This document shows, piece after piece, positions 3,213-25,325 of a stretch of DNA of 42,308 bases; position 1 is the stretch's first letter, and every line of letters starts with the position of its first letter. The stretch is from contig JAJQAN010000028.1 in assembly GCA_021203765.1 (NCBI GenBank), positions 1 to 42,308 on the forward strand. Reading direction: 5' to 3'. Below the pieces are notes generated by a model. That model was not told the origin of the DNA, did not search any database, and saw nothing but the letters and a program-made list of their open reading frames with translations. This DNA comes from Coriobacteriaceae bacterium (lineage in GTDB: Bacteria; Actinomycetota; Coriobacteriia; Coriobacteriales; QAMH01). The position numbers were made by a program, and so were the translations under genes.

Positions 3213-3309
3213 TGGCGGAGATGCGTGCGAATCGAACACACCCAAGACGTTCTGCGCGCCTCACAGCGGCTTTGAAGGCCGTGGGGTCCACCAGGGCCCA
3301 TCCATCTCC
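3213..3309 (-). tRNA. selC: tRNA-Sec (UCA anticodon)
   Basis: Reverse complement GGAGATGGATGGGCCCTGGTGGACCCCACGGCCTTCAAAGCCGCTGTGAGGCGCGCAGAACGTCTTGGGTGTGTTCGATTCGCACGCATCTCCGCCA. 97 nt; anticodon loop CTTCAAA (TCA), long variable arm (GAGGCG/CGTCTT), TTCGATT T-loop, encoded CCA. Adjacent to selAB. Confidence 0.93.
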
Positions 3310-20015: not shown

Positions 20016-22199
20016 TTACGCAAGGTCCATCTCATACTCATATTGGGCGCCGGCTTCGTCGGCCAGGCGCTGCTTCAGTCTCATGTACAGTTCCTCAGCA
20101 TGCTGTTCAGCCCAGGTCTGGTCGTCGACGAGCTCGACGTCGACGGCACAGAACTTGTCCTCCGGGGTGTGCGAGCGTGAGTCGACCCGGTGGATGGTGA
20201 GATCGTTGCATTTACCGACCCACCACTGATAGGTCATGTAGACCGCGCCCTCGTTGGCTCGGTCGTCCACGAACGCACGGGTGATGATCTTCCCGCGGCG
20301 GGAGTAGACCCACACGAGATCGTCGTTGTTGATCCCGCGCTTCAAGGCATCGTCCGGGTTGATGTGTACGAACCCGGGCTCCTCGGCCAGGTTGGACAGC
20401 TGGTCGCAGTTGCCGGTCATCGAACGGCAGGAATAATGTCCGACCTCGCGCACCGTGCACAGGACGAGCGGATACTCGTCGTCGGGCATCTCGGACGGAT
20501 CCTCGTAGTCGTGGGCGATCAGATGGGCTTTGCCTTCCGGCGTGGTGAACGCGCCGTTCAAGAACAGATCGGGCGTCCCGGGATGGTCGAGCGTCGGGCA
20601 AGGCCACTGGGCATGGCCGACACCTTCCATCTTCTCGTAGGTCGCGCCGTAGGCGCCGCTCCACATCTCGCGGCATTCCTTGTCCCAGATCTCCTGCGTG
20701 TTCTCGTAGTGCATGTCATAACCCATGCGCTGGGCCAGCTCGCAGATGATCTGCCAGTCATGCTTGCATTCTCCTTTGGGCGGGACCGCCGCCGTGAAGC
20801 GTTGGAAGGTGCGGTCGCAGGCGGTAAAGACGCCTTCGTGTTCGCCCCAGCTGGTAGCCGGTAAGATCACATCGGCCTTCTCGCAGCTCTGCGTCATGAA
20901 GATGTCCTGGCAGACAAAGAGATCGAGTTTGCTGAACTGTTCCTCGAGGTGCTTGGCATCCGGCTCCGTCTGGAGCGGGTCCTCGCCGAAGTTGTAGAAG
21001 GCGTGTACCTTGCCCTCGTCGATGAGGTGCCCCACGTCGGAGACCTTGAAGCCGACCTCGCCGGAGAGCTGTTCGACCGGGACGTTCCAGTTGTCGGCGA
21101 ACTTCTGGCGAACGTCCGGATCGGTGACCTTCTGGTAGCCGGGGAAGAAGTTCGGCAGCGCGCCCATGTCGCAGGCGCCCTGCACGTTGTTCTGTCCGCG
21201 GACCGGGGCCACGCCGGAGTTCGGCTTGCCGATTTGATGCGTGACGCAGGCGATGGCCGCGCAGGTGTGGACCGCCTCGACGTTTTGGCGATGCTGGCAC
21301 ACACCCATGCCCCAGCAGATAATGGACGACGGCTCGGCCGTCGCATACATGTGGGCTGCTTCGCGCATCATGCCCGGGTCGATACCCGTGATGGACTGTG
21401 TGCTTTCGGGAGTGTACTTCTCAATCGTCTGCCACCATTCATCGAAGCCGAGCGTATGCTCGTTGATGAAGTCCTCATCGATGAGACCTTCGTTGACGAT
21501 GGTGTTGGCAAATGAATTGAGAAATGCGACGTTTGTGCCGTTGCGCAGCGGCATGTACAGGTCGGCGATGCGGGCAGTCTCGATGAATCGTGGATCGGCC
21601 ACGATGATCTTGGCTCCCTTCTCCTTCGCCTTTACCACACGGCGCGCAACCAGCGGATGTGATGTGTTCGGGTTGTACCCGAACAAGAAGAGACACCCGG
21701 CATCCTCCATACCAGGTACCCCGCAACTCATTGAACCAGACCCGAGTGTGTCAATCAGACCGACGACAGTAGGGCCGTGTCAAGTTCGTGCACAGTTGTC
21801 AATGTTGTTCGTACCGATGCAGGCTCGTGCGAAGCGCTGCATCACCAAGTTGGATTCGTTGCCTGTTCCACGTGACGAACCCGTTGTCATAATGGCGTCG
21901 GGACCGTACTTCTCTTTGACCTCCAGCAGCTTTTTTGCCACGAAATCAAGAGCTTCGTCCCAGGTAACACGTTTGAGCGGTTTGTCTTTCGATTCGCGCA
22001 TCATCGGATGCAGGATGCGTGGTGTCAGAATCCTCGTGTCGTTGATGAAGTCGTAGCCGAACCAGCCCTTCAAACAAAGGAAACCTTCATTCGTCAGACC
22101 GTTGAGCGGCTCCGCTCCGACGACCAGATCGTTTTCGACCAGGAGGTTGAACTTGCATCCCGTCCCGCAGTAAGGACATACAACCATATGTTTTTCCAT
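20016..22199 (-). CDS. fdhF: Formate dehydrogenase H, selenocysteine-containing (FdhF); UGA at 21780-21782 read as Sec
   Basis: ORFs 21780..22199 and 20016..21731 are the same frame joined across TGA: ...NNIDNCART-U-HGPTVVGLIDTLGSGSMSCGVPGMEDAG... The CARTUHGP active site, single in-frame UGA, SECIS-like element and selA/B/C in this window support 727 aa. Confidence 0.97.
21735..21782 (-). promoter_or_regulatory. SECIS element for fdhF UGA decoding
   Basis: mRNA: UGA CACGGCCCUAC UGUC GUC GGUCU GAU U GACA. Stem with bulged U and GGUCU loop; loop begins 18 nt after UGA, the same offset as I recall for E. coli fdhF (UGA CACGGCCCAUC GGUUGCA GGUCU GCACC). Confidence 0.8.
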
Positions 22200-23739: not shown

Positions 23740-24861
23740 TCAGCGAGCGTGTCGTGAGCGCATCTGCCCTGCGTTCATCAACTCAAGTACCTGGGCATCC
23801 CGCTTGAAGAGCACGCAGCCACCGCCATCTTCGTTCGTCAGCAACCCGCCCTCGCGCAGCGCACGGAACAGTTCCGATTGCAAGGCACCTGCCACCCCGA
23901 CCTCTTGCACGTTAATACCGGAGTGAGGAGAAAACGGACAGGGCTCGGCATCCCCACGGGAGTTTATGTGGATGAAACCCCGCCCGCCAGCCAGACATCC
24001 TCCGGCCACCTTCTCCTCACCTGGAAACGCGAGAAAAATCATGTCTTCGAACGTCGCACGCAGACTATCAAGGCGCTCTTCCAGATACAGCCGATCATCA
24101 GCATCGGGAGCCAGATATTCCGTGCCCTCCGAGGGAGCCATATATTCGACGAGGATCAGGATGCGACAACCCTGTGCATACAGCTCTTCAACGAAGGCCT
24201 CGGACAACGCTTCGTGGATGTTCTGGGTCGTCACCGTCACAAAGGCGCCGAAGAGGATGCCGAGCTCCTTCATCTGCCGCATCGTGATGTCCAGGCGCTG
24301 ATGGACATCACCATCGCCTCGAGATCCCGTCGAAACCTGAGGAGACATCAGACTGAGGATAGGAACCAGATTCCTGTTCTGATCGAATATCTGCAGGTAC
24401 TCGTCCGAGAACAAGGATCCATCGGTGATGACAGGAAACACCACATCAGGAAATGAAGCCGCCTGTAAAAGAACGTCCCGACGCAAAAGCGGCTCTCCTC
24501 CCGCCAAGACGATGAAGCCGATCCCCAGGGAAGCGGATTCCTGAAAGATCGTGCCCCACGCCTCATCACTCAAGTTGTCTGCAGGAGGGCAGTCGTTACA
24601 GAAATCGATGACCGTGGAGTAGCGACCGACACGGGGTAGATTGCAGCTGCTGGTGATGCTGGCGATCAAAAACGCCGGAACATGCACGCCTTGCGCCTCC
24701 TGCTTCTGGCGCAGACGGGCAAAACGTCTGCTTGCAAGCGCATAGGCAGCTAGAAAGGCGCTTTCCTTGGCATTGGGAAGCGTGGCTCTCAGGGCCCGCT
24801 TGACGATGTCTTCCACGCCTTCGTTCAGATATGCCACTAGATTGAATTCCTCGTCGGCCAT
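23740..24861 (-). CDS. Radical-SAM-like protein with degenerate CX3CX2C motif
   Basis: IASITSSCNLPRVGRYSTVIDFCNDC, LAGGEPLLRRDVLL, C-terminal GGCLAGGRGFIHINSRGDAEPCPFSPHS. Start MADEEFN at 24861. Confidence 0.8.
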   Translation of the reverse strand: MADEEFNLVAYLNEGVEDIVKRALRATLPNAKESAFLAAYALASRRFARLRQKQEAQGVHVPAFLIASITSSCNLPRVGRYSTVIDFCNDCPPADNLSDEAWGTIFQESASLGIGFIVLAGGEPLLRRDVLLQAASFPDVVFPVITDGSLFSDEYLQIFDQNRNLVPILSLMSPQVSTGSRGDGDVHQRLDITMRQMKELGILFGAFVTVTTQNIHEALSEAFVEELYAQGCRILILVEYMAPSEGTEYLAPDADDRLYLEERLDSLRATFEDMIFLAFPGEEKVAGGCLAGGRGFIHINSRGDAEPCPFSPHSGINVQEVGVAGALQSELFRALREGGLLTNEDGGGCVLFKRDAQVLELMNAGQMRSRHAR

Positions 24862-24995
24862 GAAACCGCTCTCCAGGGGTTGCACTCTTATTTTTGTATC
24901 TGGTACAGTTATAAGTGCGCAAAGGCTCCGCGTCAATGACGCAGTATTAGTAGACCAGGTACGCAAAAGTTGACCTGTTCGAAAGAAGGCTCGAC

Positions 24996-25325
24996 ATGGC
25001 TAACGAACATGTATGCCCGTGCACCGCAGGCTGTCCGCTCCAGAATGTGATGAACGCACTCGGCGGCAAATGGAAGATGTCCATCCTCTGCTCGGTCTTG
25101 AACGACGGACCGGTGCGCTACAACGATTTGAAGCGCAAGATGGAGGGGATTTCGAACACGATGCTTTCGAAGTCCTTGAAAGAATTGGAAGAAGATGGGC
25201 TTGTGGAGCGGAACGAGTACCTGGAGATACCGGTCCGCGTCGAATACGAGGCAACAGACAAGACGCGGTCTTTGACGCCGATCCTGTCCGAGCTTGCCGT
25301 GTGGAGCGGCGAGAACATGAACTAG
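24996..25325 (+). CDS. HxlR-family winged-helix transcriptional regulator
   Basis: CPLQNVMNALGGKWKMSILCSVLNDGPVRYNDLKRKMEGISNTMLSKSLKELEEDGLVERNEY; divergent from the radical-SAM gene; Cys-rich N-terminus (CPCTAGCP). Confidence 0.92.
   Translation: MANEHVCPCTAGCPLQNVMNALGGKWKMSILCSVLNDGPVRYNDLKRKMEGISNTMLSKSLKELEEDGLVERNEYLEIPVRVEYEATDKTRSLTPILSELAVWSGENMN

Follow-up and report, generated by a model that had tools for sequence, protein, structure and literature searches.

A candidate radical-SAM pseudoenzyme with an altered cluster and AdoMet site in a Coriobacteriia-type actinobacterium

The gene and its surroundings

We examined a window of 42,308 nucleotides (contig JAJQAN010000028.1, assembly GCA_021203765.1) from an uncultured Coriobacteriia-type actinobacterium with a small genome of 1.2 Mb, the assembly of which is fragmented (62 contigs) and 90% complete. 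The placement in the Coriobacteriia was read from the genes of the window and their neighbours. On its minus strand the window carries an open reading frame for a protein of 373 amino acids (hereafter P0001), running from an ATG at 24861 to a stop codon that ends at 23740 with no internal stops, as the initial annotation had described it. The features of this gene, and those found upstream of it, are collected in Table 1.

The start codon is preceded by a Shine-Dalgarno-like sequence and by a promoter-like element, and a divergently oriented gene for an HxlR-family regulator lies 134 bp from the P0001 gene. Between the two genes we observed a direct repeat, GTRCGCAAA (24915-24923 and 24959-24967), that could possibly represent an operator or, being short, could be a product of chance. 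No HxlR neighbour was present near any orthologue locus fetched; the neighbours there included a MarR regulator accompanied by a glutathione-peroxidase-like gene (GSHPx) or a nitroreductase, or a TetR regulator, with no fixed partner. The recurrence of a one-component, sometimes redox-linked regulator beside members of the family suggests a possible stress-related role, and we speculate that the divergent HxlR protein might control P0001.

Two further loci in the window deserve mention. Just downstream of the P0001 gene (23332-23634, minus strand) is a small Phd/YefM-like protein with a Lys-rich tail, matching PF02604 weakly and below the cut-off, with no obvious toxin partner. A formate dehydrogenase H-like gene (20016-22199, minus strand) appears as two ORFs on account of one in-frame TGA within NNIDNCART*HGPTVVG, which is the position expected for selenocysteine, and a tRNA-Sec gene is found in the same window (3217-3309, minus strand).

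Table 1. Coordinates, in the numbering of the window, of the P0001 gene, its altered and retained sites, and the upstream features
Feature	Position	Strand	Basis
Radical-SAM-fold protein P0001, 373 aa	23740..24861	-	open ORF, weak NCBIfam hits, AF2, Foldseek
Cys73, first cluster Cys, kept	24643..24645	-	Cys in 62/62 relatives
Arg77 (cgt) at second cluster Cys	24631..24633	-	61/62 relatives Cys, 1 Ser
Arg80 (cgc) at third cluster Cys	24622..24624	-	Cys in 62/62 relatives
Cys88-Asn-Asp-Cys91, proposed new pair	24589..24600	-	Cys88 and Cys91 each seen singly in canonical relatives
FTNG to ITDG (F145I, N147D)	24418..24429	-	N147 in 62/62 relatives
SIEG altered (E172M, G173S)	24343..24348	-	alignments with relatives
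TDxRRGxGV to TGSRGDGDV (D179G, R182G, G183D, G185D, ungapped)	24307..24327	-	R182, G183 and G185 in 62/62 relatives
S207F, invariant Ser of strand 5	24241..24243	-	Ser in 62/62 relatives
EYVPV to EYMAP (V241M, P242A, V243P)	24133..24141	-	P242 in 62/62 relatives
Cys289, kept, putative auxiliary cluster ligand	23995..23997	-	62/62 relatives; at or beside a SkfB Cys in alignment
Cys308 in EPCPFSP, kept	23938..23940	-	62/62 relatives; aligns with PC of SkfB
Cys349 in GGCVLF, kept	23815..23817	-	62/62 relatives
Shine-Dalgarno-like GGAGA, 8 nt before ATG	24870..24874	-	read from sequence
Promoter-like TTGACG-N17-TATAAC (10/12), ~50 bp upstream	24908..24936	-	read from sequence; missed by a stricter scan rule, suggestive
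Divergent HxlR-family regulator	24996..25325	+	PF01638 E 2.3e-27; NCBIfam RrpA-like redox MarR/HxlR below cut-off

Fold, relatives and altered sites of P0001

The AF2 model of P0001 (pTM 0.84, pLDDT 78.5) was comparable to that of a canonical homologue (0.84 and 79.4), with parts of its pocket modelled at low confidence (residues 83-91, at pLDDT below 50, and 176-182). The top Foldseek match of the model was SkfB (6efn, E 1.7e-13), with PqqE and SuiB also recovered, and as modelled the protein appears to adopt the partial TIM-barrel fold of radical-SAM proteins. At the level of sequence profiles P0001 gave no match to the Pfam Radical_SAM domain (PF04055) at threshold, while the canonical homologue L032 does match (2.2e-11); its NCBIfam hits were weak radical-SAM ones, the best (AhbD, 5e-11) falling far below the cut-off.

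We searched the genome of the host itself, 399 genomes of its order, 400 of its class, 300 of the phylum of locus L002, GTDB contigs, and plasmids, and recovered a family of ∼370-residue proteins from Coriobacteriia, Bacillota and a rumen Methanosphaera plasmid, with identities to P0001 of at most 50%, together with longer paralogues. Viral contigs yielded two distant relatives of the family and no more. The plasmid-borne member (L078, on pNP174 of the rumen archaeon Methanosphaera sp. ISO3-F5) is canonical and adjoins a TetR regulator; its location suggests transfer between domains. The initial annotation had raised the possibility that the strain also carries a canonical paralogue, P0001 being a decaying duplicate. 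That origin was rejected, as the 90% complete host assembly contains no second copy of the family; nine other Pfam radical-SAM domains are present in it, and none match P0001.

The segment from 24589 to 24645 (minus strand) corresponds exactly to Cys73 through Cys91. The cluster site of P0001 is SSCNLPRVGRYS, in which the usual motif is replaced by C73-N-L-P-R77-V-G-R80-Y, i.e. CX3RX2R, and not the [4Fe-4S]-ligating CX3CX2C (or known variant) required for a catalytic member of the radical-SAM group (PF04055). The coding strand reads tgc aat cta ccc CGT gtc ggt CGC tac tcc ... ttc TGT aac gac TGC, confirming that each of the two Arg codons is a single T-to-C step away from a Cys codon, as initially annotated. 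The same source proposed aligning homologues in order to ask whether the paired arginines are common to them; in our alignment of 63 sequences P0001 is the sole member that has lost both the second and the third cluster cysteines. A longer, distant radical-SAM paralogue in another genome (L014, G025:C316) has CNVHSTGCW, with Ser at the second position, which is either an error or another partial loss that arose separately.

The initial annotation also regarded the rest of the protein as intact, which holds for GGEP and for the C-terminal cysteines but not for eight further superfamily-conserved core residues. The AdoMet-pocket motifs FTNG, SIEG, RRGxG, S207 and VPV are altered as well. Of the 40 superfamily-conserved columns in the 63-sequence alignment, P0001 deviates at 10 and none of the 62 others at more than three; the loss of the site thus exceeds chance variation in the family. 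The ten departures (C77, C80, N147, G173, D179, R182, G183, G185, S207 and P242) all fall in the barrel core, at positions that we take to surround the cluster and AdoMet, on the basis of their strand-end placement in the predicted secondary structure and general knowledge of radical-SAM proteins. In a 17-member set of close relatives, 19 of the 83 strictly conserved columns differ in P0001, compared to 0-4 in each of the remaining 16 members, and E172 and the VPV motif are additional changes by that set; one of the 19 (L118V) is also found in the Methanosphaera homologue and is not meaningful alone. Aligning residues 178-186 with gaps (one Arg codon lost, one Asp gained) gives slightly fewer departures and the same conclusion, and a compensating codon loss and gain within this segment is possible. 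A double frameshift as the source of NLPRVGRYSTVID was rejected, since the ungapped reading needs point changes alone.

The residues that P0001 keeps include C73, N164, S170, R181, the GGE motif of strand 2 (as AGGEP) and all superfamily-conserved C-terminal residues; by the close set, nearly all other C-terminal invariants are also retained. C289, C308 and C349 are invariant in 63/63 sequences, a number in keeping with twitch domains, in which one auxiliary cluster is coordinated by three or four cysteines (PMC10452713).

Selection, decay and other explanations

The losses are distributed unevenly, affecting 16 of 48 conserved columns in the core versus 2 of 31 in the C-terminal part (Fisher P 0.006). 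Neutral simulations from three canonical homologues, which rest on assumed values of kappa, GC and indel rates, accumulated a mean of 1.4-4.8 stops by the time 10-19 conserved residues had been lost. At 15-19 losses the count was 2-5 stops, with a probability of no stop of 1.5-16% before indels and of at most 0.3% with an assumed indel rate of 5%. Only one of 66 all-hydrophobic columns has turned polar in P0001, against a neutral expectation of 5-7 (P 0.008-0.05), and none of 1000 neutral runs kept the frame open while also conserving the C-terminus. Because P0001 has no stops, has lost a single hydrophobic column and shows this imbalance between core and C-terminus, simple neutral decay is disfavoured, to the extent that the assumptions of the simulation hold. 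The branch leading to P0001 is approximately twice as long as those of its neighbours in both parts of the protein (partitions did not separate the acceleration), and some relaxation is therefore likely. Selection on P0001 was judged from one fragmented assembly and from orthologues that are all at most 50% identical to it.

We believe that P0001 is probably a selected radical-SAM pseudoenzyme, in preference to a gene in decay or an enzyme built on a novel cluster motif: the catalytic site is lost, and the ORF, the putative C-terminal ligands and the predicted fold are retained. The initial annotation had listed a dead protein, a repurposed one and a non-canonical motif as options, of which the first two appear to apply together (dead, and apparently still selected) and the third fares poorly. 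A less probable explanation, although one to be taken seriously, is that the gene is under relaxed selection or in early decay, with catalysis gone and the reading frame surviving by chance or weak constraint. The long branch in both domains would fit such a history, as would a GC3 of 0.65 that is below that of most window genes tested (0.68-0.84, with the N-terminal part of fdhF an exception at 0.63) and the restriction of P0001 to a single genome, with no orthologue in six other genomes of the host's family; the absence of stops and frameshifts, the intact hydrophobic core, the concentration of losses on the catalytic side and the preserved codon-position GC pattern all argue against it.

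It is very unlikely that P0001 is a working radical-SAM or Fe-S enzyme using a non-canonical C73-X14-C88-X2-C91 motif. The appropriate region does contain three cysteines, and radical-SAM motifs other than CX3CX2C are known in other families. The FCNDC pair, however, which was put forward initially as new and as the source of a possible CX14CX2C cluster, has its precedents: Cys88 is already present in four relatives (L002, L032, L050 and the Methanosphaera plasmid homologue) and Cys91 in one (L003), all of which carry a normal CX3CX2C, such that the pair in P0001 appears to be a combination of cysteines found at these positions in relatives. In addition, residues 83-91 are the ones predicted at a pLDDT below 50, and a working cluster is unlikely because SAM-binding residues (N147, E172, G173, R182 and S207) have been lost along with the cluster cysteines. 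At least as doubtful is the idea that Cys73, Cys88 and Cys91 form a replacement metal site that, with the retained C-terminal cluster, supports a SAM-independent redox or sensing reaction. Least credible is a sequencing or assembly error behind the Arg codons; the sequence was judged from an assembly of 62 contigs, but there are numerous changes, all of them in frame, that affect six distinct active-site motifs and not other parts, a choice of sites that random error would not make.

In our preferred reading, the selected pseudoenzyme would descend from a ∼370-residue SkfB/AhbD-like radical-SAM family that has a C-terminal three-cysteine (twitch-like) domain, and its barrel fold and C-terminal domain would have been maintained under selection. 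With its [4Fe-4S]/AdoMet site rewritten, P0001 would not be expected to bind the radical cluster or to cleave SAM. It might, more speculatively, act through the twitch-like domain as a non-catalytic binding or redox-sensing (auxiliary Fe-S) protein. The apparent selection on the fold and the auxiliary-cluster cysteines, in a protein that has lost the cluster and SAM pocket, would make a C-terminal function testable apart from radical chemistry, and annotation of P0001 by homology as a ‘radical SAM enzyme’ would be incorrect.

Comparison with known radical-SAM proteins

Term searches of the open-access literature found no paper centred on a radical-SAM pseudoenzyme, and such proteins seem to be rarely documented. 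A precedent exists in the NCBIfam family TIGR04347 (‘pseudo-SAM/SPASM’), whose name implies a relative of radical-SAM/SPASM proteins that is regarded as lacking a functional SAM site. This model matches the canonical homologue L032 at 8e-18, whereas P0001 does not match at 1e-3, and nothing in the host genome exceeds its curated cut-off of 525 bits; the loss in P0001 is presumably independent, in a separate lineage.

The structural matches SkfB (6efn), PqqE (6c8v) and SuiB (5v1q) resemble P0001 in fold (Foldseek E 1.7e-13 to 4.5e-11) and align with it at 15-20% identity, but all three are catalytic members of the radical-SAM group that carry the canonical motif. The AhbD heme synthase (TIGR04545), the best NCBIfam match over residues 68-238, has a similar C-terminal auxiliary cluster domain; P0001 scores 42 bits where the cut-off is 500, and so is not a member of that family. 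AhbD keeps both CX3CX2C and a C-terminal CX2CX5CX20-38C (PMC10452713).

The closest comparison is with the ∼370-residue family itself (L002, L003, L032, L046-L048 and L078), for which we found no family name. Its members are homologous to P0001 over their full length (the nearest being 45-50% identical) and share its C-terminal GGC...EPCPFSP...GGC cysteines, but they carry CNLxCxGCY and an intact SAM pocket, whereas P0001 has neither.
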